A DNA stretch of 64,000 nt from Cinnamomum chago (Eukaryota > Streptophyta > Magnoliopsida > Laurales > Lauraceae), in contig CP142452.1 in assembly GCA_038049695.1 (NCBI GenBank), positions 33,282,501 through 33,346,500 of the forward strand, written 5' to 3'. The position numbers and the translations under genes are program-made. Numbering within the stretch: the stretch's first letter is position 1; each line of letters begins with the position of its first letter. Below, piece by piece: positions 2,228-46,360 of this stretch. A model generated the notes under the pieces. The model saw only the letters and a list, made by a program, of their open reading frames with translations, did no database searches and had not been told where the DNA came from.

Positions 2228-2252
2228 AGGACTAGCCGTTGGCAACTTTTTG

Positions 2253-3672: not shown

Positions 3673-3920
3673 GGAAATCCGGTGGGGTGTTGGTTCACAA
3701 GCCGGCAGTGGATGTAGGCATTGAGGCCGAACCACTATAAATCCTTGTGTGATGGTGATTGCTTTGTGGTGATTCTTTTGTTAGCTTCCGCATCTTGTAT
3801 GATTAATCATCACTTGTGACTAGCTTGTTTTAAAGAAGTTAAATTTGTTAAAATTGGTCATAATTGGAGCCCACCCTATTCACCCCCCCCCTCTAGGGTT
3901 CGGATCCCCATGGACTTACA

Positions 3921-13415: not shown

Positions 13416-13456
13416 GTTCAACTCAGTTTCAGACAGCATTGTCTTTTTCGAATAGT

Positions 13457-15380: not shown

Positions 15381-15467
15381 GAAAGGGAAGAATTCTTCCC
15401 TCCCGGCTCCCTCTTCTGGCACAATAACTAGGGGATCTAGAGGCAAACCCCCCCCCAACCCTTCCTC

Positions 15468-23270: not shown

Positions 23271-23640
23271 TTTTCAATATAATTTTCCTGCAAACCTGTT
23301 TATCTGTATAAAAAATAAACCTATTCATGTACCTATATTCAATATAAAAAATGCATGCAAACAAAAGTTGCTAATAAATAAAACAACCATCACCATTTTT
23401 CATCAAATCATTCATCTCATTAAACAAATATTACAATCAATAATGATATAGTCCCATATAAATGTCCAATATACATATACAAATAAACTAAAAAAAATAA
23501 ACACCCCCACAAGTCTGCAACCGACCCCAAAGCGTCCATCAATCTGCAATGACTAAAACAACAATAGAATCTTTTCAATGAATTAAATTATAAATGAAAG
23601 ATAAACATGTATATATATATAAATCTTTTCCTAAGTTTTT
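23271..23640 (+). mobile_element. CACTA-end internal segment, right copy
   Basis: This is the inverted partner of 10641-11010. Read on the minus strand it holds the same acceptor-like GTCATTGCAG and the IDGRFGV-like short open stretch before the subterminal repeats. Its inner edge runs directly into satellite at CTAAGTTTTTCGGCGGCC (23631-23648), with no spacer. Confidence 0.65.
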
Positions 23641-24929: not shown

Positions 24930-25148
24930 TGAAAGTCCGGGGATCCGAACCCTAGAGGGGGGGGGGTGAATAGGGTGAGCTTCAATTATGACCAATTTTA
25001 ATCAATTTAACTTCTTTAACTTAAACTAGTCACAAGTGGTGATTACAAATAAAATGCGGAAGCTTAATAAAAATAATCACCACAAAGCAAGCACCATCAC
25101 ACAAGGATTTATAGTGGTTCGGCCTCAATGCCTACATCCACTACCGGC
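24930..25148 (-). mobile_element. Solo LTR family B, segment next to left junction
   Basis: This is the 3' end of a minus-strand LTR (TGAAAGTCCGGGGATCCG on the plus strand, so ...GGACTTTCA on the minus). It includes the G run with GTGAATAGGG and the TTTATAGTGGTTCGGCC block. It is interrupted at CCGGC by the gag-only array and continues at 44391. Confidence 0.88.
25144..25148. repeat. Target site duplication CCGGC of the array (left)
   Basis: CCGGC directly precedes the first array LTR at 25149. The partner is at 44386-44390. One pair flanks the whole four-LTR array, so the array occupies a single insertion site. Confidence 0.92.
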
Positions 25149-26260
25149 TGAAAGTCCACGAGGATCCTAACCCTAGAGGGGGGGGGGTGAATAGGGTGTG
25201 CTACAACTATGACCAATTTCGACCAATTTTAATTTCTAAAACTAAACTAGTCACATGTGATGATTAAACAAACAAGATGCGGAAGCTAATACAAAATCAA
25301 TCACCACATAGCATGCACCACAACACCAATATTTATAGTGGTTCGGCCAACGTGCCTACATCCACTACCGGCTTGTGTCTCCAACACCCCACCGGATTCC
25401 ACTAATTATGCTTTTTACTAGGCTAAGCAATAACCCTTACAAAGTTGTTTTTCTAAGGCTCAACAACAACCTTTACAAGATGCTTTTCAAGGCTAAGCAA
25501 TAACCTATCAAGATGCTTTTCTTAGGCTAAGCAATAACCCTACAATATGCTTTTATTAGGCTAAGCAATAACCTTACAAGTTGCTTTTCTTAGGCTTAGC
25601 AATAACCTTTACAAATATAGATTTCTCAAAGAAAGTGTCTTCACAAAAGATCACTCTAAGAGATACAATTTTAGCTCAATGTAATTGCCTCTTAAAATAG
25701 GCGGATTTGAAAGTTTAATACAAACTCACACAAACACTCTATGTATGCAAAAGATGTATGCTAATGAGGTGTGTGTGTGATGACTTCAATCAAGATTAAA
25801 AAGAAAGCTCAATCAATTTATGCTTAATGCAATTTGAAAGTTTAAGGCACAAAAAGATATGATTGAAGTTCTATGCAAATCACATGAATAATAAACAACT
25901 TGTTAATGACATGAAATTCAAAGAATCACAAGTTGTATGAAAAATAAAGTTTAAGAAAGCATGTGATTTGATAAGAGTGATTGCAAACTAATCTAATTTA
26001 CCAAGAAAGATATTGAGCTTGCAAAACAACTCTTTAAGGACTTGAAATCATGCATAAATGAAAATACAAAGGATTTGAACATGCATGAATTTCATTTGTA
26101 TGGAAATCAAAATAACTTAGAAGATGTACCTTTTAAAAACTCATGTATTTGATTTCCAAATTGCCCTCTAGCCTTTCCAACTTCTTCCCCTTTCTTTGGC
26201 TCCAAAATGCTCTCAAAGGTTCATGGTTCAAGCCTTGAAAAAGGTTGGAAAAGAATGGAC

Positions 26261-26268
26261 TTTATAGC
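26261..26268 (-). promoter_or_regulatory. LTR TATA box (minus strand)
   Basis: Minus-strand CTATAAA lies about 26 bases downstream of the first palindrome core, as in the solo LTR at 2253-2260. The same box occurs in the other three array LTRs at the matching offset. Confidence 0.6.
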
Positions 26269-26293
26269 CAAAAAGTTGCCAACGGCTAGTTCT

Positions 26294-26433
26294 CGGTCGA
26301 CCTAGACACAGGTCTCGGTCGACCGAGAAAGCACAACGGTCATATTTCTGACCGTTGGCCTGAAACAGTTCAAAAACTGTCCATTTGCCCTGCAGTGTTC
26401 TCGGTCGACCGAGACACAGGGCTCGGTCGACCG
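26294..26433 (-). repeat. Palindrome tetrad CGGTCGACCG in array LTR
   Basis: Cores are at 26294, 26316, 26402 and 26424. Three are full CGGTCGACCG palindromes, and the first is degraded at its right flank. Between the pairs are AACGGTC (26335-26341) and GACCGTT (about 26349-26355), a second inverted repeat. The arrangement is identical in LTRs 2-4 at the matching offsets. Confidence 0.85.
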
Positions 26434-26951
26434 ACGACACTGTCGGGCGAGTCCCTGGGCCAAAATTCCAACTTTTTCCATTTTCAAAGTTTTTCTTTGG
26501 TGGATCTTTTGGCCACTAAATCAAGCTTAAATAACATGTTTTAAGATATTCTAAGATGTTTAAAAACATGAGAAACACAAAGCCTAAAATGATTCACAAG
26601 ATTAAAACCAAAGGCTAGCTTGATTTGAATACAACTCTTTTCAAATGAAATTGCATACAAAATGATTCTTTTTGTGAAGAATGTATGCAAGACTTAAACC
26701 TAAATACACAAGATGATTTTCCAAATGTAGTGCACAAGGAAATAGGTTTTCAAAAGAGTTTTGGGTTCTAAAACCAATGCATCCAAGTTTAAAACCAAAA
26801 CATGCATAAAACAAAAGCTTTTCCAAATCTTAAAAGCTATGCATGGGTAAAACTAGATTTCAAGATATTTTAAATCAATGCATGTGTGTGAATTCAAATG
26901 ATGCCAATATGCAAATGCATCCACCAAATTGCAAAAACAAAATACCTAACA

Positions 26952-27361
26952 ATCTCCCCCTTTGCAATTTGATGGCAACTTACTCATCATTGAAATTACA
27001 CACTCTGTCTTCAGCTCCCCCTCAGCTGGACAAGTCTTGAAATCTTCTTCTTGGATGCTCCTTCTCTTAGCTTGGGCTCTTGGGCTCTTTTCTTCAATCT
27101 TCTTGATGCTTGGTGCTTGATCATTCTTCAAGCTTTCTTATCATCTTCCTCTCTATGGCCAAGCATCTTCTTTAGCTCCAAGCTTTCTTTCTTCTATTTG
27201 CTCTCCCCCTTTGACCATGCTTCTTTCTCCTCTTGAGAACTTGAAAGCTTTCTCCCCCTTTGATGGATAGGAGATCTTCGAGTACTTTAACTCTCGAACT
27301 CTCTCCCCCTTTGAAGAGTAGGAGATCTTTGAGTCACACTTGAACTCTCTCTCCCCCTTTG
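26952..27361 (-). promoter_or_regulatory. Multiplied polypurine tracts, unit 1
   Basis: The minus strand has five exact copies of CAAAGGGGGAG, at 26954-26964, 27204-27214, 27252-27262, 27303-27313 and 27351-27361. The first is next to the 3' LTR start (TGTTAGG) and is the expected functional PPT. The others share extended context (GGAGATC, GAACTCTCTC). Imperfect copies are at about 27015 and 27548. Repeated PPTs before the 3' LTR are described for Sireviruses (family knowledge, from memory). Confidence 0.75.
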
Positions 27362-29294
27362 ACATTAAATTGCAAAGGTACCTACACACATGAGACAAGA
27401 AGAATACCTTTAGTAGCACCTGTTAACAAATGTAATCGAAAATGACAAACATAACAGGCTATCATGTATGTAAGTTAACTCTAAGGGCTCATTAGCATTC
27501 CAAGGGTGAATTTGATCAAAACTAATTCTTCCTACGAAGGTTTACACTCCCCCTCAATCCATTCTCTTCTTTTGTCAAGCTTTTGACAAGATATAACTAT
27601 TAGATTCAAGAAGTAGATGGTTTAACCAAGTGAGGGTTAACTTCAAGGAAAGGATTAGATTCATTTAACTATTAAGCTCATATGATCAAATTACCAAAAG
27701 AGAGCTAGGTCTAATGGGAGAAGCAATCATGGATATCAATTGAAACAAACATATCAATTGAGATTAAAGGATATGACTATAAACTCAATCACTCTAAAAT
27801 GGATTCAAGAATGTCACTTATTAGGAAAAATCCAAATTAGAGCTATCCATGATATGGGGTTTACTCAAACATAGCATCAATCAATATTACTTATGAAAAT
27901 CATATGCTATGTAAGTTTTGAACTCATTTCATTCAATCAATAAATATGACTATTAAAGTGCATGAAAGAGTGAAATGAAATTCAATCATGAAGCCAACCT
28001 CAAATAATAACCAACCAATATTATTAACACATAAACATGGTGGTCATGAGATTTACCTATGAGAGCAAAAAGAGGTGGCAATCATGAGCATTATGATGCT
28101 AATGGTGTGTGACGTGGAACAATTATATAACTATGAAGATTAGTCCAAAGCACACAAGGTCTATCACATACACAAGATAAGATATCAATTGGATATGAAA
28201 TCAATGGAACATTATACCAAATGAAACCAATTGAATATGATAACATGAGTAAAAGCAAGGATGTGATACACTTCCATCAAGCATCATAAATGCATATTCA
28301 TCACTTTTAATGATATTCCTAAAGAGCATAGTGATGAACAAGGCAAATTGCAATGCAAAAGGATAAAGCTTTGTAATGCATGCAATTTCCAAAGTGTCTA
28401 GATCATATGAATTCAACACTAAGAAATCCATCAAACAAGAGATATAACTATGAAATACAAGTAATGGATTTCAAAAAGGTTCATATGATCAAGAACACTA
28501 ATATGAGGTTGAAACATGTATAAGGATGATATCAAGAGAATACACATGAATCAACATCATAACCATCCACGAAGAAAAGACTATAAGGCAAAGAGGATGG
28601 ATTTGGGTTCTAGTATGGTTTCTACAAATGAAACTAAGATCACAACCATACATGGAACCAAAAGTCATTTGCATATAAAAAGAATAACTAAATAAGCAAA
28701 GATGCAAACAACATTCATTTCCAATTCTAAGATAATGAAACCAAAAGAAAAGGAAATGAGAACATGGAACATGCTTAGATGAATATAACTAAAGAGGTTA
28801 TAGAGCATTTCCATTCAAACAATCTTCAAATCAACAAAATCCTACAATGAGCATAAAAGGAATGATTTTGAAGATCAATTTTCAACTTTGTATTTTAGAA
28901 GATATAACTTAATTGAAACAAATACAAGTTGATTTTTCAAAACAATTTTCCATATAAAAGTTTAACTTATAAAACCATGGAAAATCCAATTGATTATGAA
29001 GAATCTAGCTATGAAAGCTTTTGAAATCACAATCAATTAATCATGTAGAAATGCAATGCAAAACATAAAACTAAATGCAAGCAAAAAGCAAATCAAACAT
29101 GATGAGATTATAATCAAGAGATTTTGAAAACCATGACAAGTAACTAGAATGGTGCATGAAGACAAAATCAAATGATCATAAAGAAGCAATGCATTTTAAG
29201 AAATCTAACTAAAAGAAACAAAATGCAAATGCACTCATGACCAACAAAGTGATTTAACTAATAAAGAGTAGGTTGGTCAATGAGGTTCAAGACC
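27362..29294. other. Non-coding internal region, unit 1
   Basis: About 1.9 kb of A-rich (plus strand) sequence replaces where pol would be. No protease, integrase or RT motif can be read in any frame. A perfect inverted repeat TTGTCAA-GCTT-TTGACAA lies at 27572-27589. The sequence is the same in units 2 and 3 as far as I compared. Confidence 0.6.
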
Positions 29295-30854
29295 CTAAGG
29301 TTTGTCTAGGTAAATAACTTTAGGAATCCACCTAAGGTCTTGGGAGGGTTGAACTTTGAGATCTATCTTGGAATTCTCACCAACTATAGGAGATTTAACT
29401 TGATAAATTTTCAATTTAAACTTATCACCATGATATTTAGATTTTACTAAATTTGGCTTAGAATGGTGAATAGTCTTTTGATGTTGGTGAGTTTGTTTCT
29501 TTGGGGATTGTTTCACTTTTCTTTTCTTCTTACTTTCTCCCTTTACTTGACTTTTGAATTTTAGATTTAACTTAGCAACTTTCTTCAAAAGGTCTTTCAT
29601 TGGTTCATATAAGGGAGATAGATTGAGAAGCTTTTTGTTCTTAGATTCTTTCAAGCTTGATTTAACTTGTTTAAGCTTTTTAGAATCTATTTTAGGAGAC
29701 TCCATTTTAAAGGATTTAACTTGTTTAGTCTTTTTGGAGTTTTCCTTGATTTTTAGTGTCTTACCCTTCAAGTTTGATTTTCCATTTTTGAGTTCAAAGA
29801 TGGGTTTAGACACATGGCTTCTCTTTCTTAGTTTGCACTCAAACCTAAAGTGTCCTTCAATGCCACAATAATTACATTTAGACATGGGCAAAGAAGTGTG
29901 AGTGCTAGAGAATGAGGACTCACCTTTCACAAAAGTGTTGGTGAATTTAGGGTCATAAGATATATTCCTATTAAATCCAATACCCGTCCTATCTCCATGA
30001 GATTTACCCAATTTGAATAATTTTTCAAGTTTCTCTTCACTTTGGGTAAACTTGCACTCATACTTTTGTTTATTGTTTTCAAGTTGAGTGACTTTGGTTA
30101 TAAGGATTGAATTTTCATTTTTAACTTTTGAAAGTTCATATTCAATTTCCTTATATTTGCTTAGCTCTTCATTGGCAAGTTTTAATTCATGTTTAAGTTC
30201 ATTAACAATATTAGATCCAAGTTCTTGTGATTTTAACTTACTTTTAATCAACTTGGCTTCTAAGTTGTTAAAGTCTTTATCTTGTTTTTTAATTGTATCT
30301 CTTAGGTTCAAATTTTCATTTGTAAGCTCATCACAATTTATCTTAATCTCATTTAATTCGTTTTGAGTATTAGATAAATTTTCCTTAGAGATAGTCAATT
30401 TTGATTCAAGATTGTTAAAGTCTTTATCTTGCCTTTGTAATTGATCTCTTTGTTTTAGATTTTCCTTATTGACATTATCATAATCCATCTTTAATTCTTT
30501 TAGTTCATCTTGAATGTTAGATAGATTATTTAAAGAGATCATGAACTTAGAGTCTAGACATTTTATTACTTCTTCTTTCTCTCTAAGTTCATCTTTTGAA
30601 GATGCTAGCTCTTTGTTTAGGTTTTTAGATTCTTCCCTTAAACTTTTGTTTTTCTTTTCAAGCTTTAAGGATATTTCATATAATTCTTCAAAAGCTTGTT
30701 GAAGGTCTTCTTCATTATATTCATTTTCTTCTTCTTTTGGATCAAATTGATTTTCATTAGTTTGAGAGTTTGAAACTCCAAAAGAAGGAAGATTGAGGGG
30801 TCTAAAAGAATCTACAAAGTCTAGCCTAGTGGAGTCCATTCTAATGATTTTCAA
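29295..30854 (-). CDS. gag: Gag-like protein of gag-only element, unit 1 (519 aa)
   Basis: The ORF is intact, from ATG 30854 (a second Met is at codon 6) to the stop at 29295, starting about 85 bases inside the PBS. Residues 50-275 are a long coiled coil holding two 49-residue tandem repeats (about 100-148 and 149-197, both ending RQDKDFNN or KQDKDFNN). A conserved block, EKLFKLGKSHGDRTGIGFN...FVKGE, follows at about 276-312. It matches the copia Gag at 6760-7626. A zinc knuckle CNYCGIEGHFRFEC (C327, C330, H335, C340) comes next, then a Lys-rich basic tail. The end carries RWIPK, like the WVPK before the copia protease. The UBN2 N-terminal domain is absent. It probably binds RNA and co-assembles with Gag of a helper element. 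This unit has Phe17 and Asp where units 2 and 3 have Ser17 and Glu (MKDLLKK or MKELLKK). Confidence 0.85.
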   Translation of the reverse strand: MKIIRMDSTRLDFVDSFRPLNLPSFGVSNSQTNENQFDPKEEENEYNEEDLQQAFEELYEISLKLEKKNKSLREESKNLNKELASSKDELREKEEVIKCLDSKFMISLNNLSNIQDELKELKMDYDNVNKENLKQRDQLQRQDKDFNNLESKLTISKENLSNTQNELNEIKINCDELTNENLNLRDTIKKQDKDFNNLEAKLIKSKLKSQELGSNIVNELKHELKLANEELSKYKEIEYELSKVKNENSILITKVTQLENNKQKYECKFTQSEEKLEKLFKLGKSHGDRTGIGFNRNISYDPKFTNTFVKGESSFSSTHTSLPMSKCNYCGIEGHFRFECKLRKRSHVSKPIFELKNGKSNLKGKTLKIKENSKKTKQVKSFKMESPKIDSKKLKQVKSSLKESKNKKLLNLSPLYEPMKDLLKKVAKLNLKFKSQVKGESKKKRKVKQSPKKQTHQHQKTIHHSKPNLVKSKYHGDKFKLKIYQVKSPIVGENSKIDLKVQPSQDLRWIPKVIYLDKP

Positions 30855-30940
30855 ATAAGCACAACTCTAGGGTTTTAACTCTAGGTTTTTACACCTAATC
30901 AAGAGTTCCAAAACACTTGATCCTAAGGGATAGAGCACTT

Positions 30941-30953
30941 GGCTCTGATACCA
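30941..30953 (-). promoter_or_regulatory. Primer binding site, unit 1
   Basis: Minus-strand TGGTATCAGAGCC lies two bases after the LTR end and is complementary to initiator tRNA-Met. It is the same PBS as in copia element 2. Confidence 0.9.
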
Positions 30954-30955
30954 AT

Positions 30956-32767
30956 TGAAAGTCCACGAGGATCCTAACCCTAGAGGGGGGGGGGGGGGGG
31001 GGGTGAATAGGGTGTGCTACAACTATGACCAATTTCGACCAATTTTAATTTCTAAAACTAAACTAGTCACATGTGATGATTAAACAAACAAGATGCGGAA
31101 GCTAATACAAAATCAATCACCACATAGCATGCACCACAACACCAATATTTATAGTGGTTCGGCCAACGTGCCTACATCCACTACCGGCTTGTGTCTCCAA
31201 CACCCCACCGGATTCCACTAATTATGCTTTTTACTAGGCTAAGCAATAACCCTTACAAAGTTGTTTTTCTAAGGCTCAACAACAACCTTTACAAGATGCT
31301 TTTCAAGGCTAAGCAATAACCTATCAAGATGCTTTTCTTAGGCTAAGCAATAACCCTACAATATGCTTTTATTAGGCTAAGCAATAACCTTACAAGTTGC
31401 TTTTCTTAGGCTTAGCAATAACCTTTACAAATATAGATTTCTCAAAGAAAGTGTCTTCACAAAAGATCACTCTAAGAGATACAATTTTAGCTCAATGTAA
31501 TTGCCTCTTAAAATAGGCGGATTTGAAAGTTTAATACAAACTCACACAAACACTCTATGTATGCAAAAGATGTATGCTAATGAGGTGTGTGTGTGATGAC
31601 TTCAATCAAGATTAAAAAGAAAGCTCAATCAATTTATGCTTAATGCAATTTGAAAGTTTAAGGCACAAAAAGATATGATTGAAGTTCTATGCAAATCACA
31701 TGAATAATAAACAACTTGTTAATGACATGAAATTCAAAGAATCACAAGTTGTATGAAAAATAAAGTTTAAGAAAGCATGTGATTTGATAAGAGTGATTGC
31801 AAACTAATCTAATTTACCAAGAAAGATATTGAGCTTGCAAAACAACTCTTTAAGGACTTGAAATCATGCATAAATGAAAATACAAAGGATTTGAACATGC
31901 ATGAATTTCATTTGTATGGAAATCAAAATAACTTAGAAGATGTACCTTTTAAAAACTCATGTATTTGATTTCCAAATTGCCCTCTAGCCTTTCCAACTTC
32001 TTCCCCTTTCTTTGGCTCCAAAATGCTCTCAAAGGTTCATGGTTCAAGCCTTGAAAAAGGTTGGAAAAGAATGGACTTTATAGCCAAAAAGTTGCCAACG
32101 GCTAGTTCTCGGTCGACCTAGACACAGGTCTCGGTCGACCGAGAAAGCACAACGGTCATATTTCTGACCGTTGGCCTGAAACAGTTCAAAAACTGTCCAT
32201 TTGCCCTGCAGTGTTCTCGGTCGACCGAGACACAGGGCTCGGTCGACCGACGACACTGTCGGGCGAGTCCCTGGGCCAAAATTCCAACTTTTTCCATTTT
32301 CAAAGTTTTTCTTTGGTGGATCTTTTGGCCACTAAATCAAGCTTAAATAACATGTTTTAAGATATTCTAAGATGTTTAAAAACATGAGAAACACAAAGCC
32401 TAAAATGATTCACAAGATTAAAACCAAAGGCTAGCTTGATTTGAATACAACTCTTTTCAAATGAAATTGCATACAAAATGATTCTTTTTGTGAAGAATGT
32501 ATGCAAGACTTAAACCTAAATACACAAGATGATTTTCCAAATGTAGTGCACAAGGAAATAGGTTTTCAAAAGAGTTTTGGGTTCTAAAACCAATGCATCC
32601 AAGTTTAAAACCAAAACATGCATAAAACAAAAGCTTTTCCAAATCTTAAAAGCTATGCATGGGTAAAACTAGATTTCAAGATATTTTAAATCAATGCATG
32701 TGTGTGAATTCAAATGATGCCAATATGCAAATGCATCCACCAAATTGCAAAAACAAAATACCTAACA
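30956..32767 (-). repeat. Array LTR 2 (shared by units 1 and 2)
   Basis: At 1,812 bp this is the longest of the four. Its excess over LTR 1 is exactly the extra nine bases in its 19-base G run (30985-31003). It serves as 5' LTR for unit 1 and 3' LTR for unit 2, with no flanking duplication between units. Confidence 0.93.
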
Positions 32768-33177
32768 ATCTCCCCCTTTGCAATTTGATGGCAACTTACT
32801 CATCATTGAAATTACACACTCTGTCTTCAGCTCCCCCTCAGCTGGACAAGTCTTGAAATCTTCTTCTTGGATGCTCCTTCTCTTAGCTTGGGCTCTTGGG
32901 CTCTTTTCTTCAATCTTCTTGATGCTTGGTGCTTGATCATTCTTCAAGCTTTCTTATCATCTTCCTCTCTATGGCCAAGCATCTTCTTTAGCTCCAAGCT
33001 TTCTTTCTTCTATTTGCTCTCCCCCTTTGACCATGCTTCTTTCTCCTCTTGAGAACTTGAAAGCTTTCTCCCCCTTTGATGGATAGGAGATCTTCGAGTA
33101 CTTTAACTCTCGAACTCTCTCCCCCTTTGAAGAGTAGGAGATCTTTGAGTCACACTTGAACTCTCTCTCCCCCTTTG
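32768..33177 (-). promoter_or_regulatory. Multiplied polypurine tracts, unit 2
   Basis: Same five CAAAGGGGGAG copies as unit 1, offset by 5,816 bases. The LTR-adjacent one is at 32770-32780. Confidence 0.75.
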
Positions 33178-35110
33178 ACATTAAATTGCAAAGGTACCTA
33201 CACACATGAGACAAGAAGAATACCTTTAGTAGCACCTGTTAACAAATGTAATCGAAAATGACAAACATAACAGGCTATCATGTATGTAAGTTAACTCTAA
33301 GGGCTCATTAGCATTCCAAGGGTGAATTTGATCAAAACTAATTCTTCCTACGAAGGTTTACACTCCCCCTCAATCCATTCTCTTCTTTTGTCAAGCTTTT
33401 GACAAGATATAACTATTAGATTCAAGAAGTAGATGGTTTAACCAAGTGAGGGTTAACTTCAAGGAAAGGATTAGATTCATTTAACTATTAAGCTCATATG
33501 ATCAAATTACCAAAAGAGAGCTAGGTCTAATGGGAGAAGCAATCATGGATATCAATTGAAACAAACATATCAATTGAGATTAAAGGATATGACTATAAAC
33601 TCAATCACTCTAAAATGGATTCAAGAATGTCACTTATTAGGAAAAATCCAAATTAGAGCTATCCATGATATGGGGTTTACTCAAACATAGCATCAATCAA
33701 TATTACTTATGAAAATCATATGCTATGTAAGTTTTGAACTCATTTCATTCAATCAATAAATATGACTATTAAAGTGCATGAAAGAGTGAAATGAAATTCA
33801 ATCATGAAGCCAACCTCAAATAATAACCAACCAATATTATTAACACATAAACATGGTGGTCATGAGATTTACCTATGAGAGCAAAAAGAGGTGGCAATCA
33901 TGAGCATTATGATGCTAATGGTGTGTGACGTGGAACAATTATATAACTATGAAGATTAGTCCAAAGCACACAAGGTCTATCACATACACAAGATAAGATA
34001 TCAATTGGATATGAAATCAATGGAACATTATACCAAATGAAACCAATTGAATATGATAACATGAGTAAAAGCAAGGATGTGATACACTTCCATCAAGCAT
34101 CATAAATGCATATTCATCACTTTTAATGATATTCCTAAAGAGCATAGTGATGAACAAGGCAAATTGCAATGCAAAAGGATAAAGCTTTGTAATGCATGCA
34201 ATTTCCAAAGTGTCTAGATCATATGAATTCAACACTAAGAAATCCATCAAACAAGAGATATAACTATGAAATACAAGTAATGGATTTCAAAAAGGTTCAT
34301 ATGATCAAGAACACTAATATGAGGTTGAAACATGTATAAGGATGATATCAAGAGAATACACATGAATCAACATCATAACCATCCACGAAGAAAAGACTAT
34401 AAGGCAAAGAGGATGGATTTGGGTTCTAGTATGGTTTCTACAAATGAAACTAAGATCACAACCATACATGGAACCAAAAGTCATTTGCATATAAAAAGAA
34501 TAACTAAATAAGCAAAGATGCAAACAACATTCATTTCCAATTCTAAGATAATGAAACCAAAAGAAAAGGAAATGAGAACATGGAACATGCTTAGATGAAT
34601 ATAACTAAAGAGGTTATAGAGCATTTCCATTCAAACAATCTTCAAATCAACAAAATCCTACAATGAGCATAAAAGGAATGATTTTGAAGATCAATTTTCA
34701 ACTTTGTATTTTAGAAGATATAACTTAATTGAAACAAATACAAGTTGATTTTTCAAAACAATTTTCCATATAAAAGTTTAACTTATAAAACCATGGAAAA
34801 TCCAATTGATTATGAAGAATCTAGCTATGAAAGCTTTTGAAATCACAATCAATTAATCATGTAGAAATGCAATGCAAAACATAAAACTAAATGCAAGCAA
34901 AAAGCAAATCAAACATGATGAGATTATAATCAAGAGATTTTGAAAACCATGACAAGTAACTAGAATGGTGCATGAAGACAAAATCAAATGATCATAAAGA
35001 AGCAATGCATTTTAAGAAATCTAACTAAAAGAAACAAAATGCAAATGCACTCATGACCAACAAAGTGATTTAACTAATAAAGAGTAGGTTGGTCAATGAG
35101 GTTCAAGACC
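33178..35110. other. Non-coding internal region, unit 2
   Basis: Counterpart of 27362-29294. No coding motifs, and I noticed no difference from unit 1. Confidence 0.6.
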
Positions 35111-36670
35111 CTAAGGTTTGTCTAGGTAAATAACTTTAGGAATCCACCTAAGGTCTTGGGAGGGTTGAACTTTGAGATCTATCTTGGAATTCTCACCAAC
35201 TATAGGAGATTTAACTTGATAAATTTTCAATTTAAACTTATCACCATGATATTTAGATTTTACTAAATTTGGCTTAGAATGGTGAATAGTCTTTTGATGT
35301 TGGTGAGTTTGTTTCTTTGGGGATTGTTTCACTTTTCTTTTCTTCTTACTTTCTCCCTTTACTTGACTTTTGAATTTTAGATTTAACTTAGCAACTTTCT
35401 TCAAAAGTTCTTTCATTGGTTCATATAAGGGAGATAGATTGAGAAGCTTTTTGTTCTTAGATTCTTTCAAGCTTGATTTAACTTGTTTAAGCTTTTTAGA
35501 ATCTATTTTAGGAGACTCCATTTTAAAGGATTTAACTTGTTTAGTCTTTTTGGAGTTTTCCTTGATTTTTAGTGTCTTACCCTTCAAGTTTGATTTTCCA
35601 TTTTTGAGTTCAAAGATGGGTTTAGACACATGGCTTCTCTTTCTTAGTTTGCACTCAAACCTAAAGTGTCCTTCAATGCCACAATAATTACATTTAGACA
35701 TGGGCAAAGAAGTGTGAGTGCTAGAGAATGAGGACTCACCTTTCACAAAAGTGTTGGTGAATTTAGGGTCATAAGATATATTCCTATTAAATCCAATACC
35801 CGTCCTATCTCCATGAGATTTACCCAATTTGAATAATTTTTCAAGTTTCTCTTCACTTTGGGTAAACTTGCACTCATACTTTTGTTTATTGTTTTCAAGT
35901 TGAGTGACTTTGGTTATAAGGATTGAATTTTCATTTTTAACTTTTGAAAGTTCATATTCAATTTCCTTATATTTGCTTAGCTCTTCATTGGCAAGTTTTA
36001 ATTCATGTTTAAGTTCATTAACAATATTAGATCCAAGTTCTTGTGATTTTAACTTACTTTTAATCAACTTGGCTTCTAAGTTGTTAAAGTCTTTATCTTG
36101 TTTTTTAATTGTATCTCTTAGGTTCAAATTTTCATTTGTAAGCTCATCACAATTTATCTTAATCTCATTTAATTCGTTTTGAGTATTAGATAAATTTTCC
36201 TTAGAGATAGTCAATTTTGATTCAAGATTGTTAAAGTCTTTATCTTGCCTTTGTAATTGATCTCTTTGTTTTAGATTTTCCTTATTGACATTATCATAAT
36301 CCATCTTTAATTCTTTTAGTTCATCTTGAATGTTAGATAGATTATTTAAAGAGATCATGAACTTAGAGTCTAGACATTTTATTACTTCTTCTTTCTCTCT
36401 AAGTTCATCTTTTGAAGATGCTAGCTCTTTGTTTAGGTTTTTAGATTCTTCCCTTAAACTTTTGTTTTTCTTTTCAAGCTTTAAGGATATTTCATATAAT
36501 TCTTCAAAAGCTTGTTGAAGGTCTTCTTCATTATATTCATTTTCTTCTTCTTTTGGATCAAATTGATTTTCATTAGTTTGAGAGTTTGAAACTCCAAAAG
36601 AAGGAAGATTGAGGGGTCTAGAAGAATCTACAAAGTCTAGCCTAGTGGAGTCCATTCTAATGATTTTCAA
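35111..36670 (-). CDS. gag: Gag-like protein of gag-only element, unit 2 (519 aa)
   Basis: Intact frame with the same coiled coil, paired 49-residue repeats and CCHC knuckle as unit 1. It differs at two residues: Ser17 (base 36621 G, where unit 1 has A at 30805) and Glu in MKELLKK (base 35408 T, where unit 1 has G at 29592). Both changes are shared with unit 3, so units 2 and 3 are closer to each other in gag. Confidence 0.85.
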   Translation of the reverse strand: MKIIRMDSTRLDFVDSSRPLNLPSFGVSNSQTNENQFDPKEEENEYNEEDLQQAFEELYEISLKLEKKNKSLREESKNLNKELASSKDELREKEEVIKCLDSKFMISLNNLSNIQDELKELKMDYDNVNKENLKQRDQLQRQDKDFNNLESKLTISKENLSNTQNELNEIKINCDELTNENLNLRDTIKKQDKDFNNLEAKLIKSKLKSQELGSNIVNELKHELKLANEELSKYKEIEYELSKVKNENSILITKVTQLENNKQKYECKFTQSEEKLEKLFKLGKSHGDRTGIGFNRNISYDPKFTNTFVKGESSFSSTHTSLPMSKCNYCGIEGHFRFECKLRKRSHVSKPIFELKNGKSNLKGKTLKIKENSKKTKQVKSFKMESPKIDSKKLKQVKSSLKESKNKKLLNLSPLYEPMKELLKKVAKLNLKFKSQVKGESKKKRKVKQSPKKQTHQHQKTIHHSKPNLVKSKYHGDKFKLKIYQVKSPIVGENSKIDLKVQPSQDLRWIPKVIYLDKP

Positions 36671-36756
36671 ATAAGCACAACTCTAGGGTTTTAACTCTAG
36701 GTTTTTACACCTAATCAAGAGTTCCAAAACACTTGATCCTAAGGGATAGAGCACTT

Positions 36757-36769
36757 GGCTCTGATACCA
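36757..36769 (-). promoter_or_regulatory. Primer binding site, unit 2
   Basis: TGGTATCAGAGCC on the minus strand, two bases from LTR 3. Confidence 0.9.
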
Positions 36770-36771
36770 AT

Positions 36772-38576
36772 TGAAAGTCCACGAGGATCCTAACCCTAGA
36801 GGGGGGGGGGGGTGAATAGGGTGTGCTACAACTATGACCAATTTCGACCAATTTTAATTTCTAAAACTAAACTAGTCACATGTGATGATTAAACAAACAA
36901 GATGCGGAAGCTAATACAAAATCAATCACCACATAGCATGCACCACAACACCAATATTTATAGTGGTTCGGCCAACGTGCCTACATCCACTACCGGCTTG
37001 TGTCTCCAACACCCCACCGGATTCCACTAATTATGCTTTTTACTAGGCTAAGCAATAACCCTTACAAAGTTGTTTTTCTAAGGCTCAACAACAACCTTTA
37101 CAAGATGCTTTTCAAGGCTAAGCAATAACCTATCAAGATGCTTTTCTTAGGCTAAGCAATAACCCTACAATATGCTTTTATTAGGCTAAGCAATAACCTT
37201 ACAAGTTGCTTTTCTTAGGCTTAGCAATAACCTTTACAAATATAGATTTCTCAAAGAAAGTGTCTTCACAAAAGATCACTCTAAGAGATACAATTTTAGC
37301 TCAATGTAATTGCCTCTTAAAATAGGCGGATTTGAAAGTTTAATACAAACTCACACAAACACTCTATGTATGCAAAAGATGTATGCTAATGAGGTGTGTG
37401 TGTGATGACTTCAATCAAGATTAAAAAGAAAGCTCAATCAATTTATGCTTAATGCAATTTGAAAGTTTAAGGCACAAAAAGATATGATTGAAGTTCTATG
37501 CAAATCACATGAATAATAAACAACTTGTTAATGACATGAAATTCAAAGAATCACAAGTTGTATGAAAAATAAAGTTTAAGAAAGCATGTGATTTGATAAG
37601 AGTGATTGCAAACTAATCTAATTTACCAAGAAAGATATTGAGCTTGCAAAACAACTCTTTAAGGACTTGAAATCATGCATAAATGAAAATACAAAGGATT
37701 TGAACATGCATGAATTTCATTTGTATGGAAATCAAAATAACTTAGAAGATGTACCTTTTAAAAACTCATGTATTTGATTTCCAAATTGCCCTCTAGCCTT
37801 TCCAACTTCTTCCCCTTTCTTTGGCTCCAAAATGCTCTCAAAGGTTCATGGTTCAAGCCTTGAAAAAGGTTGGAAAAGAATGGACTTTATAGCCAAAAAG
37901 TTGCCAACGGCTAGTTCTCGGTCGACCTAGACACAGGTCTCGGTCGACCGAGAAAGCACAACGGTCATATTTCTGACCGTTGGCCTGAAACAGTTCAAAA
38001 ACTGTCCATTTGCCCTGCAGTGTTCTCGGTCGACCGAGACACAGGGCTCGGTCGACCGACGACACTGTCGGGCGAGTCCCTGGGCCAAAATTCCAACTTT
38101 TTCCATTTTCAAAGTTTTTCTTTGGTGGATCTTTTGGCCACTAAATCAAGCTTAAATAACATGTTTTAAGATATTCTAAGATGTTTAAAAACATGAGAAA
38201 CACAAAGCCTAAAATGATTCACAAGATTAAAACCAAAGGCTAGCTTGATTTGAATACAACTCTTTTCAAATGAAATTGCATACAAAATGATTCTTTTTGT
38301 GAAGAATGTATGCAAGACTTAAACCTAAATACACAAGATGATTTTCCAAATGTAGTGCACAAGGAAATAGGTTTTCAAAAGAGTTTTGGGTTCTAAAACC
38401 AATGCATCCAAGTTTAAAACCAAAACATGCATAAAACAAAAGCTTTTCCAAATCTTAAAAGCTATGCATGGGTAAAACTAGATTTCAAGATATTTTAAAT
38501 CAATGCATGTGTGTGAATTCAAATGATGCCAATATGCAAATGCATCCACCAAATTGCAAAAACAAAATACCTAACA
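36772..38576 (-). repeat. Array LTR 3 (shared by units 2 and 3)
   Basis: 1,805 bp with a 12-base G run. Otherwise the same length and landmarks as LTRs 1, 2 and 4. Confidence 0.93.
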
Positions 38577-38986
38577 ATCTCCCCCTTTGCAATTTGATGG
38601 CAACTTACTCATCATTGAAATTACACACTCTGTCTTCAGCTCCCCCTCAGCTGGACAAGTCTTGAAATCTTCTTCTTGGATGCTCCTTCTCTTAGCTTGG
38701 GCTCTTGGGCTCTTTTCTTCAATCTTCTTGATGCTTGGTGCTTGATCATTCTTCAAGCTTTCTTATCATCTTCCTCTCTATGGCCAAGCATCTTCTTTAG
38801 CTCCAAGCTTTCTTTCTTCTATTTGCTCTCCCCCTTTGACCATGCTTCTTTCTCCTCTTGAGAACTTGAAAGCTTTCTCCCCCTTTGATGGATAGGAGAT
38901 CTTCGAGTACTTGAACTCTCGAACTCTCTCCCCCTTTGAAGAGTAGGAGATCTTTGAGTCACACTTGAACTCTCTCTCCCCCTTTG
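38577..38986 (-). promoter_or_regulatory. Multiplied polypurine tracts, unit 3
   Basis: Five CAAAGGGGGAG copies as in units 1 and 2. Base 38913 is G where units 1 and 2 have T (27288 in unit 1). It is the only private change I noticed in unit 3. Confidence 0.75.
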
Positions 38987-40919
38987 ACATTAAATTGCAA
39001 AGGTACCTACACACATGAGACAAGAAGAATACCTTTAGTAGCACCTGTTAACAAATGTAATCGAAAATGACAAACATAACAGGCTATCATGTATGTAAGT
39101 TAACTCTAAGGGCTCATTAGCATTCCAAGGGTGAATTTGATCAAAACTAATTCTTCCTACGAAGGTTTACACTCCCCCTCAATCCATTCTCTTCTTTTGT
39201 CAAGCTTTTGACAAGATATAACTATTAGATTCAAGAAGTAGATGGTTTAACCAAGTGAGGGTTAACTTCAAGGAAAGGATTAGATTCATTTAACTATTAA
39301 GCTCATATGATCAAATTACCAAAAGAGAGCTAGGTCTAATGGGAGAAGCAATCATGGATATCAATTGAAACAAACATATCAATTGAGATTAAAGGATATG
39401 ACTATAAACTCAATCACTCTAAAATGGATTCAAGAATGTCACTTATTAGGAAAAATCCAAATTAGAGCTATCCATGATATGGGGTTTACTCAAACATAGC
39501 ATCAATCAATATTACTTATGAAAATCATATGCTATGTAAGTTTTGAACTCATTTCATTCAATCAATAAATATGACTATTAAAGTGCATGAAAGAGTGAAA
39601 TGAAATTCAATCATGAAGCCAACCTCAAATAATAACCAACCAATATTATTAACACATAAACATGGTGGTCATGAGATTTACCTATGAGAGCAAAAAGAGG
39701 TGGCAATCATGAGCATTATGATGCTAATGGTGTGTGACGTGGAACAATTATATAACTATGAAGATTAGTCCAAAGCACACAAGGTCTATCACATACACAA
39801 GATAAGATATCAATTGGATATGAAATCAATGGAACATTATACCAAATGAAACCAATTGAATATGATAACATGAGTAAAAGCAAGGATGTGATACACTTCC
39901 ATCAAGCATCATAAATGCATATTCATCACTTTTAATGATATTCCTAAAGAGCATAGTGATGAACAAGGCAAATTGCAATGCAAAAGGATAAAGCTTTGTA
40001 ATGCATGCAATTTCCAAAGTGTCTAGATCATATGAATTCAACACTAAGAAATCCATCAAACAAGAGATATAACTATGAAATACAAGTAATGGATTTCAAA
40101 AAGGTTCATATGATCAAGAACACTAATATGAGGTTGAAACATGTATAAGGATGATATCAAGAGAATACACATGAATCAACATCATAACCATCCACGAAGA
40201 AAAGACTATAAGGCAAAGAGGATGGATTTGGGTTCTAGTATGGTTTCTACAAATGAAACTAAGATCACAACCATACATGGAACCAAAAGTCATTTGCATA
40301 TAAAAAGAATAACTAAATAAGCAAAGATGCAAACAACATTCATTTCCAATTCTAAGATAATGAAACCAAAAGAAAAGGAAATGAGAACATGGAACATGCT
40401 TAGATGAATATAACTAAAGAGGTTATAGAGCATTTCCATTCAAACAATCTTCAAATCAACAAAATCCTACAATGAGCATAAAAGGAATGATTTTGAAGAT
40501 CAATTTTCAACTTTGTATTTTAGAAGATATAACTTAATTGAAACAAATACAAGTTGATTTTTCAAAACAATTTTCCATATAAAAGTTTAACTTATAAAAC
40601 CATGGAAAATCCAATTGATTATGAAGAATCTAGCTATGAAAGCTTTTGAAATCACAATCAATTAATCATGTAGAAATGCAATGCAAAACATAAAACTAAA
40701 TGCAAGCAAAAAGCAAATCAAACATGATGAGATTATAATCAAGAGATTTTGAAAACCATGACAAGTAACTAGAATGGTGCATGAAGACAAAATCAAATGA
40801 TCATAAAGAAGCAATGCATTTTAAGAAATCTAACTAAAAGAAACAAAATGCAAATGCACTCATGACCAACAAAGTGATTTAACTAATAAAGAGTAGGTTG
40901 GTCAATGAGGTTCAAGACC
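38987..40919. other. Non-coding internal region, unit 3
   Basis: Counterpart of 27362-29294, with no coding motifs seen. Confidence 0.6.
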
Positions 40920-42479
40920 CTAAGGTTTGTCTAGGTAAATAACTTTAGGAATCCACCTAAGGTCTTGGGAGGGTTGAACTTTGAGATCTATCTTGGAATT
41001 CTCACCAACTATAGGAGATTTAACTTGATAAATTTTCAATTTAAACTTATCACCATGATATTTAGATTTTACTAAATTTGGCTTAGAATGGTGAATAGTC
41101 TTTTGATGTTGGTGAGTTTGTTTCTTTGGGGATTGTTTCACTTTTCTTTTCTTCTTACTTTCTCCCTTTACTTGACTTTTGAATTTTAGATTTAACTTAG
41201 CAACTTTCTTCAAAAGTTCTTTCATTGGTTCATATAAGGGAGATAGATTGAGAAGCTTTTTGTTCTTAGATTCTTTCAAGCTTGATTTAACTTGTTTAAG
41301 CTTTTTAGAATCTATTTTAGGAGACTCCATTTTAAAGGATTTAACTTGTTTAGTCTTTTTGGAGTTTTCCTTGATTTTTAGTGTCTTACCCTTCAAGTTT
41401 GATTTTCCATTTTTGAGTTCAAAGATGGGTTTAGACACATGGCTTCTCTTTCTTAGTTTGCACTCAAACCTAAAGTGTCCTTCAATGCCACAATAATTAC
41501 ATTTAGACATGGGCAAAGAAGTGTGAGTGCTAGAGAATGAGGACTCACCTTTCACAAAAGTGTTGGTGAATTTAGGGTCATAAGATATATTCCTATTAAA
41601 TCCAATACCCGTCCTATCTCCATGAGATTTACCCAATTTGAATAATTTTTCAAGTTTCTCTTCACTTTGGGTAAACTTGCACTCATACTTTTGTTTATTG
41701 TTTTCAAGTTGAGTGACTTTGGTTATAAGGATTGAATTTTCATTTTTAACTTTTGAAAGTTCATATTCAATTTCCTTATATTTGCTTAGCTCTTCATTGG
41801 CAAGTTTTAATTCATGTTTAAGTTCATTAACAATATTAGATCCAAGTTCTTGTGATTTTAACTTACTTTTAATCAACTTGGCTTCTAAGTTGTTAAAGTC
41901 TTTATCTTGTTTTTTAATTGTATCTCTTAGGTTCAAATTTTCATTTGTAAGCTCATCACAATTTATCTTAATCTCATTTAATTCGTTTTGAGTATTAGAT
42001 AAATTTTCCTTAGAGATAGTCAATTTTGATTCAAGATTGTTAAAGTCTTTATCTTGCCTTTGTAATTGATCTCTTTGTTTTAGATTTTCCTTATTGACAT
42101 TATCATAATCCATCTTTAATTCTTTTAGTTCATCTTGAATGTTAGATAGATTATTTAAAGAGATCATGAACTTAGAGTCTAGACATTTTATTACTTCTTC
42201 TTTCTCTCTAAGTTCATCTTTTGAAGATGCTAGCTCTTTGTTTAGGTTTTTAGATTCTTCCCTTAAACTTTTGTTTTTCTTTTCAAGCTTTAAGGATATT
42301 TCATATAATTCTTCAAAAGCTTGTTGAAGGTCTTCTTCATTATATTCATTTTCTTCTTCTTTTGGATCAAATTGATTTTCATTAGTTTGAGAGTTTGAAA
42401 CTCCAAAAGAAGGAAGATTGAGGGGTCTAGAAGAATCTACAAAGTCTAGCCTAGTGGAGTCCATTCTAATGATTTTCAA
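40920..42479 (-). CDS. gag: Gag-like protein of gag-only element, unit 3 (519 aa)
   Basis: Intact frame whose translation is identical to unit 2. The coiled coil, CCHC knuckle (near residue 327) and basic tail are all present. Three intact copies with almost no change argue for very recent duplication, or for selection on an older array. The near absence of silent differences favours recency. Confidence 0.85.
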   Translation of the reverse strand: MKIIRMDSTRLDFVDSSRPLNLPSFGVSNSQTNENQFDPKEEENEYNEEDLQQAFEELYEISLKLEKKNKSLREESKNLNKELASSKDELREKEEVIKCLDSKFMISLNNLSNIQDELKELKMDYDNVNKENLKQRDQLQRQDKDFNNLESKLTISKENLSNTQNELNEIKINCDELTNENLNLRDTIKKQDKDFNNLEAKLIKSKLKSQELGSNIVNELKHELKLANEELSKYKEIEYELSKVKNENSILITKVTQLENNKQKYECKFTQSEEKLEKLFKLGKSHGDRTGIGFNRNISYDPKFTNTFVKGESSFSSTHTSLPMSKCNYCGIEGHFRFECKLRKRSHVSKPIFELKNGKSNLKGKTLKIKENSKKTKQVKSFKMESPKIDSKKLKQVKSSLKESKNKKLLNLSPLYEPMKELLKKVAKLNLKFKSQVKGESKKKRKVKQSPKKQTHQHQKTIHHSKPNLVKSKYHGDKFKLKIYQVKSPIVGENSKIDLKVQPSQDLRWIPKVIYLDKP

Positions 42480-42565
42480 ATAAGCACAACTCTAGGGTTT
42501 TAACTCTAGGTTTTTACACCTAATCAAGAGTTCCAAAACACTTGATCCTAAGGGATAGAGCACTT

Positions 42566-42578
42566 GGCTCTGATACCA
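42566..42578 (-). promoter_or_regulatory. Primer binding site, unit 3
   Basis: TGGTATCAGAGCC on the minus strand, two bases from LTR 4. Confidence 0.9.
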
Positions 42579-42580
42579 AT

Positions 42581-44385
42581 TGAAAGTCCACGAGGATCCT
42601 AACCCTAGAGGGGGGGGGGGGTGAATAGGGTGTGCTACAACTATGACCAATTTCGACCAATTTTAATTTCTAAAACTAAACTAGTCACATGTGATGATTA
42701 AACAAACAAGATGCGGAAGCTAATACAAAATCAATCACCACATAGCATGCACCACAACACCAATATTTATAGTGGTTCGGCCAACGTGCCTACATCCACT
42801 ACCGGCTTGTGTCTCCAACACCCCACCGGATTCCACTAATTATGCTTTTTACTAGGCTAAGCAATAACCCTTACAAAGTTGTTTTTCTAAGGCTCAACAA
42901 CAACCTTTACAAGATGCTTTTCAAGGCTAAGCAATAACCTATCAAGATGCTTTTCTTAGGCTAAGCAATAACCCTACAATATGCTTTTATTAGGCTAAGC
43001 AATAACCTTACAAGTTGCTTTTCTTAGGCTTAGCAATAACCTTTACAAATATAGATTTCTCAAAGAAAGTGTCTTCACAAAAGATCACTCTAAGAGATAC
43101 AATTTTAGCTCAATGTAATTGCCTCTTAAAATAGGCGGATTTGAAAGTTTAATACAAACTCACACAAACACTCTATGTATGCAAAAGATGTATGCTAATG
43201 AGGTGTGTGTGTGATGACTTCAATCAAGATTAAAAAGAAAGCTCAATCAATTTATGCTTAATGCAATTTGAAAGTTTAAGGCACAAAAAGATATGATTGA
43301 AGTTCTATGCAAATCACATGAATAATAAACAACTTGTTAATGACATGAAATTCAAAGAATCACAAGTTGTATGAAAAATAAAGTTTAAGAAAGCATGTGA
43401 TTTGATAAGAGTGATTGCAAACTAATCTAATTTACCAAGAAAGATATTGAGCTTGCAAAACAACTCTTTAAGGACTTGAAATCATGCATAAATGAAAATA
43501 CAAAGGATTTGAACATGCATGAATTTCATTTGTATGGAAATCAAAATAACTTAGAAGATGTACCTTTTAAAAACTCATGTATTTGATTTCCAAATTGCCC
43601 TCTAGCCTTTCCAACTTCTTCCCCTTTCTTTGGCTCCAAAATGCTCTCAAAGGTTCATGGTTCAAGCCTTGAAAAAGGTTGGAAAAGAATGGACTTTATA
43701 GCCAAAAAGTTGCCAACGGCTAGTTCTCGGTCGACCTAGACACAGGTCTCGGTCGACCGAGAAAGCACAACGGTCATATTTCTGACCGTTGGCCTGAAAC
43801 AGTTCAAAAACTGTCCATTTGCCCTGCAGTGTTCTCGGTCGACCGAGACACAGGGCTCGGTCGACCGACGACACTGTCGGGCGAGTCCCTGGGCCAAAAT
43901 TCCAACTTTTTCCATTTTCAAAGTTTTTCTTTGGTGGATCTTTTGGCCACTAAATCAAGCTTAAATAACATGTTTTAAGATATTCTAAGATGTTTAAAAA
44001 CATGAGAAACACAAAGCCTAAAATGATTCACAAGATTAAAACCAAAGGCTAGCTTGATTTGAATACAACTCTTTTCAAATGAAATTGCATACAAAATGAT
44101 TCTTTTTGTGAAGAATGTATGCAAGACTTAAACCTAAATACACAAGATGATTTTCCAAATGTAGTGCACAAGGAAATAGGTTTTCAAAAGAGTTTTGGGT
44201 TCTAAAACCAATGCATCCAAGTTTAAAACCAAAACATGCATAAAACAAAAGCTTTTCCAAATCTTAAAAGCTATGCATGGGTAAAACTAGATTTCAAGAT
44301 ATTTTAAATCAATGCATGTGTGTGAATTCAAATGATGCCAATATGCAAATGCATCCACCAAATTGCAAAAACAAAATACCTAACA
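42581..44385 (-). repeat. Array LTR 4 (5' LTR of unit 3)
   Basis: 1,805 bp with a 12-base G run. Its outer end, ...AATACCTAACA, abuts the right CCGGC duplication. Confidence 0.93.
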
Positions 44386-44390
44386 CCGGC
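44386..44390. repeat. Target site duplication CCGGC of the array (right)
   Basis: Matches 25144-25148. After it the interrupted family B LTR resumes at TTGTGATCCAACACC. Confidence 0.92.
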
Positions 44391-46355
44391 TTGTGATCCA
44401 ACACCCCACCGGATTTCCACTATTTATGCTTTTCAATAGGCTAAGAAATAACCTTTACAATATGCTTTTCAAGGCTAAGCAATAACCTCTACATTATGCT
44501 TTTCATAGGCTAAGCAATAACCTCTTCAACCACAAGGTTGGTTATCTCTCTAATTAGTGTCTATAATACACTTGATGGAGATTCAATTAAGCTCATTACA
44601 TTTGCCTCTAAAATAGGCGGATATGAAAATGAAAATCTAATACACACACACACACACTAAGAATGCAAAGATGAAAGTACATGATGTGTGTGTGTGATGT
44701 CGTCAATCATTTTGAAAATGAAAGCTCATAAATGTATGCCTAAGGCTTTTGAAAGTTTTAGCTCATAAAAACATTTATGATTGAGGAAAGAATGCAAGTC
44801 ACATGTTAAAAGTAACAACTTGTTAATGATGTCAAAGATTCACAAGTTGTATGAAATTAATTAGCTCTAAACATGTGATGCATAGGGATGTCAATCAAAT
44901 CAACAATGTAGCTCATAAAACATAAAAATAGATTTGATTGAAATTAGGGGACAAATCATATGTAATTATAAATACAACTTGAAAATTATATGCCTATCAA
45001 AGTAAGGCAAGTTGTGAAACTTTAAAACAAAGTTACATATGAATTGTAAAGATATTGAATCCAAAACATAAGATATATTTGAAAGAGATTTTCTTATGAT
45101 GGAAAACAACAAGCAAAGATTCGTCCAAGTATATGAATCATGTTACATATGATTTCAAAGATTCTTTCATTAACATGATCTACTTAGATTTACCAAATAA
45201 AGTACTACTTGGATTGAATCAAATGGTGATGCATCCAAAACAATAGATTAATTCAAAACATAAATATGTTAAGGACACAAGAAATCATAGTTTAACATGC
45301 TCCTAAAGATTTACCAAAGATAAAACAAAACATGAAAACATATGATTTGTAAAGATGTTGAATCCAAAACATAAGATAGTTTTGAAAGTGATTTTCTTAT
45401 GTTGAAAAACAACAACCAGTGATTCAACCAAGTATAGGAATCATGTTACATATAATTTCAAAGATTCATTCATTAACATGATCTACTTAGATTTACCAAA
45501 TAAAGTACTACTTGGATTGACTCAATGGTGATGTATCCAAAACAATAAATCAATTCAAAACATAAAACATGTTAAGGATACAACACCTCAAAGTTTATCG
45601 TGCTACAAAAGATTTACCAAAAATAAAACAAAGCATGAAAACATATGATTAAGGAAAGTAGCGCCTACTTGGTGATTTAACTTCATTAATCCAAGCTTTA
45701 GCTTTCCTAATGATCCCCTTCATCCCTTAGTTCATTCCCCTTTGATTTGCCTCAAAACCTCTCAAGGAAGGTCTAAAAATCCTCAACTTTTGGCAAATGA
45801 ATGAACTAGTATTTATAGCCAAAACAGCCCAACGGCTAGTCCCCCGGTCGACCTGGCTCTTCCCCGGTCGACCTGGCCTTCACAACGGTAAAAAAAGTGA
45901 CCGTTTGAAAAATGGCCAACGGTAGTATACCTGGTCGACCTGGGCCTGGCTCGGTCGACCTGGTACACTGCGTTTCTGGCCTGGGACCAAAATTCCCTAA
46001 AATCCATTTTTCAAAGTATTTTTGGTTGGGAATTTTTTGGGCCATTAAATCAAGCTTAAAAAAATGTTTTAAATCATTCTAAGGGTTTTAAAACATGAAA
46101 CATAAAAAGCCAAAAAAGATTCGAAATTATAAAACCAATGGCTTGCTTGATTTTCTAAAACTCCTTTTTCAAAAACAAATGCATCCAAGATTAAAAACAA
46201 AAACATGCATAAATCAATATTTCTTCAAGTCTAAAAACCAATGCATGTATAAAACAAGATTTCAAGAGTTTCGAAATCAATGCATATGTGTGTAAAACAA
46301 ATGATGCTAGAATGATAATGCATCCATCAAATTGCAATCTACAAAATTCCTAACA
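44391..46355 (-). mobile_element. Solo LTR family B, main segment
   Basis: This continues the LTR broken at 25148, for a combined length of about 2,184 bp with one CCGGC copy. It holds the minisatellite (about 44420-44530), the 300-bp direct duplication (about 45050-45650), a minus-strand TATA (about 45811) and GGTCGACC cores at 45846, 45866, 45933 and 45953. It ends at CCTAACA (TGTTAGG on the minus strand) beside AGTTT. It is the same family as 1695-3920. Confidence 0.88.
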
Positions 46356-46360
46356 AGTTT
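46356..46360. repeat. Target site duplication AGTTT (right)
   Basis: Matches 24925-24929 and restores the satellite monomer phase. Confidence 0.88.

Follow-up and report, generated by a model that had tools for sequence, protein, structure and literature searches.

Architecture of the array

The window, the 64,000-nt stretch of Cinnamomum chago DNA analysed here, carries at positions 25149-44385 seven blocks arranged head to tail on the minus strand, in the order LTR-internal-LTR-internal-LTR-internal-LTR. The blocks and the target-site duplication (TSD) that flanks them are as follows.

25144..25148, TSD CCGGC, left copy, directly before 25149
25149..26951, minus strand, LTR 1 (3' LTR in the element sense), 1803 bp, G run of 10
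26952..30955, minus strand, internal 1, 4004 bp; alone differs at 29592 and 30805
30956..32767, minus strand, LTR 2, shared, 1812 bp, G run of 19
32768..36771, minus strand, internal 2, 4004 bp; no site unique to it
36772..38576, minus strand, LTR 3, shared, 1805 bp, G run of 12
38577..42580, minus strand, internal 3, 4004 bp; alone differs at 38913
42581..44385, minus strand, LTR 4 (5' LTR in the element sense), 1805 bp, G run of 12
44386..44390, TSD CCGGC, right copy, directly after 44385

A single 5-bp TSD encloses the whole array, and the inner LTRs abut the PBS and the PPT with no TSD at these joints. The one TSD, together with the exact inner joints, speaks for a single event at the target site. 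When the G run (10, 19, 12, and 12) is set aside, the LTRs are identical in all six pairwise comparisons over 29 + 1764 bp. The internals vary at three of 4004 positions, each in one copy only. In particular, the three units read T, T, and G at internal position 337 (27288, 33104, and 38913), where unit 3 differs, G, T, and T at position 2641 (29592, 35408, and 41217), and A, G, and G at position 3854 (30805, 36621, and 42430), where unit 1 differs in both cases. Pairs of internals are separated by 1 to 3 differences per 4004 positions, and a self-BLAST alignment at an offset of one unit has 99.86% identity over 13.4 kb, which is far beyond chance. The block alignment and the flanks agree with the preliminary description, which had given four LTRs and three internals head to tail within one CCGGC pair, a length of 4,004 bp for each internal, and LTRs that differ only by the G run.

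Insertion site and surroundings

The array splits a related solo LTR, which itself lies within a 172-bp satellite.

24930..25148, minus strand, host solo LTR, one side, related family; TSD AGTTT at 24925-24929
44391..46355, minus strand, remainder of the host solo LTR (total length 2184 bp), followed by the TSD AGTTT at 46356-46360
46361..56641, 172-bp satellite, adjoining the host solo LTR; also at 23861-24928 on the other side

Among open-licence papers, no description of the 172-bp satellite was found. The group to which the host belongs has another solo LTR in the window, on the plus strand at 1695-3920 (TSD CTTAG). These two related solo LTRs are 88% identical over aligned columns; the array LTR has 66% identity to the host and 70% to the solo LTR at 1695-3920. 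The latter sits within a minus-strand copia element, in its pol region a little past the RT domain; the minus-strand ORFs of the interrupted element correspond to Gag, coiled coil, integrase, and reverse transcriptase, which is the copia order. Inside the satellite, a 3148-bp TG...CA stretch at 56640-59787 with the TSD CGATG is probably a solo LTR of another family; it has no match elsewhere in the window, the array and the related LTRs included. The 64 kb hold three solo-LTR-like insertions with matching 5-bp TSDs (1695-3920, 24930-46355, and 56640-59787).

Several other repeats are present. A two-copy 303-bp tandem repeat (89%) occupies 45035-45650 in the host solo LTR and is also found in the solo LTR at 1695-3920. 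The stretches 10229-11562 and 22699-24044 are inverted repeats with 76% identity. Each of them spans a transition from the satellite to a minisatellite of 56-65 bp that has CGTCGG/CCGACG motifs, and the satellite has opposite orientations on the two sides of the intervening stretch. LINE-like ORFs lie on the plus strand at 13085-17833 (DUF4283, a weak endonuclease match, and RVT_1), the first of which contains a GH17 glucanase stretch in frame.

Sirevirus-like signals of the element

The features of the repeated element suggest a non-autonomous derivative of Sireviruses (Ty1/copia). The two junctions are located as follows.

30942..30957, minus strand, LTR/PBS junction CAATTGGTATCAGAGC; the 16-mer also starts at 36758 and 42567
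26950..26961, minus strand, PPT/LTR junction AGGGGGAGATTG; the 12-mer also starts at 32766 and 38575

The Sirevirus 5' LTR/PBS junction, CA/ATTGG-TATCAGAGC, is exact in all three units and occurs nowhere else in the window. The PPT/LTR 12-mer is exact in all three units as well. Each internal has seven AGGGGGAG octamers (six besides the copy at the PPT/LTR junction), positioned 603, 407, 359, 308, 259, 71, and 10 bp from the LTR, and thus all within 603 bp of it. In 1000 mononucleotide shuffles, the mean number of AGGGGGAG is 0.009 and the maximum is 1, and 21 of the 23 octamers in the window are contained in the array. An inverted repeat, recognised by eye, borders the PPT: the left arm ends with ATTGCAA directly before AGGGGGAG, and the right arm is TTGCAATTTGG. 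The right arm begins at LTR base 18, where the figure for Sireviruses is 28 bp on average (PMC2829016).

In each array LTR, four GGTCGACC palindromes shortly precede a TATA box; they form two pairs, with 20-22 bp between the members of a pair. In LTR 4, read in sense, the boxes are at 520, 542, 628, and 650, and the TATA box is at 686. The palindromes lie at 26295-26432 in LTR 1, with equivalents in the other array LTRs, and at 2089-2226 and 45846-45960 in the related solo LTRs. Both related solo LTRs also hold four boxes, in a layout nearly that of the array LTRs, and all 24 copies in the window fall within the array LTRs and these two solo LTRs. The boxes do not vary among the three LTR types, whose remaining sequence is 66-88% identical, and they are likely promoter boxes. 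Boxes of the CGGTCGACCG type precede the TATA box in all three LTR types, with four per LTR and none in the internal. If up to two mismatches are allowed, the decamer CGGTCGACCG turns up 12 times in 38.5 kb from elsewhere in the window; this and the number of boxes speak against the Sirevirus reading. This decamer is the Vitis Sirevirus box in Table 3 of PMC2829016.

The G run corresponds to a C run in the element sense and ends 29 bp from the LTR end. The polyC-rich integrase signal of Sireviruses is about 19 bp long, varies in C content, and has a mean distance of 21 bp to the LTR end (PMC2829016). The G run is therefore about where the signal is described, in a comparison made by eye with the text rather than with a consensus.

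In tblastn searches of internal 3, the RT and IN ORFs of the window's copia element give best E-values of 0.14 and 4.4, respectively, and its capsid-bearing Gag ORF gives 2.4. The coiled-coil ORF is the only one of the four that matches (8e-17). The longest stop-free stretch in the six frames of internal 3, besides the ORF described below, is 106 codons. A hidden pol remnant is rejected by the lack of an RT or IN match in internal 3, although a more decayed remnant may have escaped this single comparison.

Taken as described by Bousios et al. 2010 (PMC2829016), Sireviruses share with the element the exact LTR/PBS 16-mer, the exact PPT/LTR 12-mer, several AGGGGGAG tracts near the 3' LTR, and long LTRs; CGG-CCG palindromes upstream of the TATA box and a C run near the LTR end are possible further shared traits. 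In contrast to Sireviruses, no capsid or pol is found in the element, and its LTR has four palindromes, whereas palindrome-bearing members have at least eight upstream of a conserved TATA box (PMC2829016). A large Gag with CCHC followed by a downstream coiled coil is a Sirevirus trait that the element does not show. Because no capsid is found and a coiled coil is followed by one CCHC only, we describe the element as a derivative of a Sirevirus and not as a full member.

The capsid-less ORF

Each internal carries one long ORF.

29295..30854, minus strand, ORF copy 1; coiled coil and a single CCHC zinc knuckle; no capsid domain detected
35111..36670, minus strand, ORF copy 2; open frame
40920..42479, minus strand, ORF copy 3; query for the protein searches and the structure

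The ORF has 519 residues from a TTG and 514 from an ATG (residue 6), and the ATG matches the start of P0001, a relative introduced below. It is open in all three units. The stop-free stretch is 523 codons long, compared with a longest stretch of 160 codons in 200 mononucleotide shuffles of the internal. Retrotran_gag_2 (PF14223) does not match the ORF at E-values up to 10, although the HMMER filters drop most matches above about 0.1, and the Pfam zinc knuckle scores 18.5 bits, below the curated cut-off of 20.8. Compared with the capsid-bearing Gag of the window, the ORF shows nothing beyond a 20-residue alignment at the knuckle (E=1.3). Compared with the window's copia coiled-coil ORF, which follows Gag, it is 33% identical over 151 residues (E=2e-17). 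The absence of a capsid domain and of similarity to the capsid-bearing Gag rules out that the ORF is a full gag. Of the three intact gag frames reported earlier, the openness in all three units stands and the full gag does not; 'gag-only' was too generous, since there is no capsid match and the likeness is to the coiled-coil part of the Gag region only.

Searches with the ORF, with a three-sequence profile, and with residues 250-350 all return the same two proteins. P0001 (521 residues) aligns over 99% of the query with 69% BLASTP identity, and P0002 (504 residues) aligns over 98% with 59% identity. A RWIPK motif near the end is common to the ORF and both relatives. The ORF and profile searches scored the 7,996 candidates that share most words; the candidates are about 285-908 residues long, which shuts out whole polyproteins. 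Among candidates of this length, no autonomous Gag carrying an ORF-like tail is found. A search for relatives in viral contigs gave three pattern hits, none of which was confirmed.

Both unit-1 differences change the ORF product, at residues 17 and 421. Residue 421 is D in unit 1 and E in units 2 and 3, P0001, and P0002; residue 17 is F in unit 1, S in P0001, and P in P0002. As the unit-1 residues are absent from both relatives, both changes seem to have arisen in unit 1, and the differences among the units appear star-like.

The AlphaFold model, which is based on three sequences, has a mean pLDDT of 53.7, and therefore only the long helix is used. Helices are predicted at residues 48-205 and 213-265 with fair to high confidence, and the confidence elsewhere is mostly low. 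The predicted helices are consistent with a coiled coil.

In simulations of neutral substitution drift, 5 of 300 replicates remain stop-free at 85% identity and none of 300 at either 73% or 63%. Protein libraries list open frames only, so the simulation weakly suggests that the ORF is kept by selection. It is conceivable, though we regard it as doubtful, that a non-autonomous Sirevirus lineage has persisted for a long time with a capsid-less Gag tail (about 210 helical residues and a zinc knuckle) as its sole protein, and that the element is a member of this lineage. In that case, selection would have preserved the tail in several related elements, the tail might serve the particles or RNA of autonomous Sireviruses in trans, and the array would be a by-product. 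Among open-licence papers, we found none that reports a Sirevirus derivative lacking the capsid. The ORF is what is most novel about the locus.

Comparison with known elements

Morales-Diaz et al. 2025 (PMC11899658) describe tandems with shared LTRs as frequent and polymorphic in rice and also find them in cotton, almond, and Arabidopsis. The arrangement is thus published as common in plants and is not exceptional. The two routes that the preliminary description proposed, unequal LTR recombination or a concatemer, are sound and are both discussed in the literature; PMC11899658 leaves the mechanism open. Like the tandems in that paper, the array alternates LTRs and internals, has an LTR at both ends, a 5-bp TSD, and similar units. 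The published tandems are mostly recent, and one from rice shares with the array a location inside another transposon. The array has three internals and is copia, whereas the rice tandems of PMC11899658 are mainly gypsy. Two further differences from these tandems are that no pol or capsid is found in the array and that its host is a related solo LTR in satellite DNA.

The element resembles TR-GAG elements (PMC9784723) in having two LTRs around one gag-region ORF and in being non-autonomous. However, its ORF has no recognisable copia Gag (capsid) domain, which places it outside TR-GAG as defined in PMC9784723. The array also resembles Cassandra (PMC7215508), a non-autonomous LTR element that forms arrays with shared LTRs and has a TGGTATCAGAGC primer site. 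Unlike the element, Cassandra is described in PMC7215508 as compact, with 5S sequences in the LTRs and with no gag or pol.

Origin of the array

The best reading, to which we give a probability of roughly 0.6, is one insertion followed by unequal LTR-LTR recombination. One copy of a non-autonomous Sirevirus-like Ty1/copia element would have entered the related solo LTR in the satellite, in minus orientation, and this insertion would have made the CCGGC duplication seen at the array ends. Two identical 1.8-kb LTRs could then mispair between sister chromatids or homologues, and unequal recombination, in one or more events, would add internal-plus-LTR units to give four LTRs and three internals. 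The reverse direction of the same recombination would delete internals and leave solo LTRs. Amplification in place would require no element protein. The original insertion probably used the proteins of an autonomous relative, because no pol or capsid sequence is found in the element. Recombination in place is favoured because solo LTRs, the reciprocal kind of product, occur in the window, and because a three-unit RNA would be about 17.4 kb long (3 × 5.8 kb), compared with 8.45-14.42 kb for the 21 Sireviruses of Table 2 in PMC2829016. The reading also rests on the single TSD with TSD-free inner joints, the exact PBS and PPT junctions of all three units, the LTR identity outside the G run, and the star-like differences among the internals. 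On the other hand, none of the solo LTRs in the window belongs to the array element's own family: two are related and the third has no match. In the one haplotype analysed, the site shows neither a one-unit nor a solo-LTR allele. Nested independent insertions are excluded by the TSD-free inner joints and the identical LTRs. Recombination of two separate nearby insertions is disfavoured, since the array has the same TSD on both sides and not the two distinct target sites that such an event would leave.

The one TSD around the whole array would equally be expected if a trimer had been inserted ready-made, a tandem transcript of a one-LTR circle or of a tandem locus read through having been reverse-transcribed and integrated once. 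PMC11899658 proposes a circle or read-through route, and for Cassandra, tandem transcripts comprising two to five units have been reported (PMC7215508). However, the length of the three-unit RNA, beyond that of the listed Sireviruses, argues somewhat against such an origin, and repeated LTRs in the template would favour the loss of units through strand transfer while it is reverse-transcribed; we consider this origin unlikely. Extrachromosomal cDNA or circles of the same family could instead have recombined into a resident LTR and added units from other loci, which we judge quite unlikely. This would be the yeast Ty type of multimer, reportedly described by Weinstock et al. 1990. For yeast, PMC11899658 cites integrase-independent integration at elements already present, but the few differences among the internals fit copies of one element, although a young family could be as uniform. 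A single haplotype cannot separate recombination in place from insertion of a multimer, and six haplotypes likewise failed to do so in PMC11899658.

Expansion of one or two real units by the assembler is improbable. Near-identical 5.8-kb units are difficult to assemble, and the LTRs differ only within an error-prone homopolymer. However, the three copy-specific substitutions and the unequal G runs argue against one sequence pasted three times, and the window has no N. A two-unit rice tandem is spanned by four reads (PMC11899658), which shows only that such arrays can exist.

We apply to the array a substitution rate that we take to be 1.3e-8 per site and year. At this assumed rate, the absence of substitutions between the outer LTRs bounds the insertion at about 64,000 years (95%), and the three internal substitutions correspond to about 12,000 years for the copies, both of which are rough values. 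Gene conversion would make these estimates too young. The array is apparently recent.

Implications

The locus provides a clean three-unit case, with single-base differences between the units and solo LTRs of related families beside the array. A clean and apparently recent trimer with neighbouring solo LTRs could help to decide between growth in place and insertion of a multimer, the question left open in PMC11899658. If the capsid-less ORF is under selection, the Gag coiled coil would have a role apart from the capsid.
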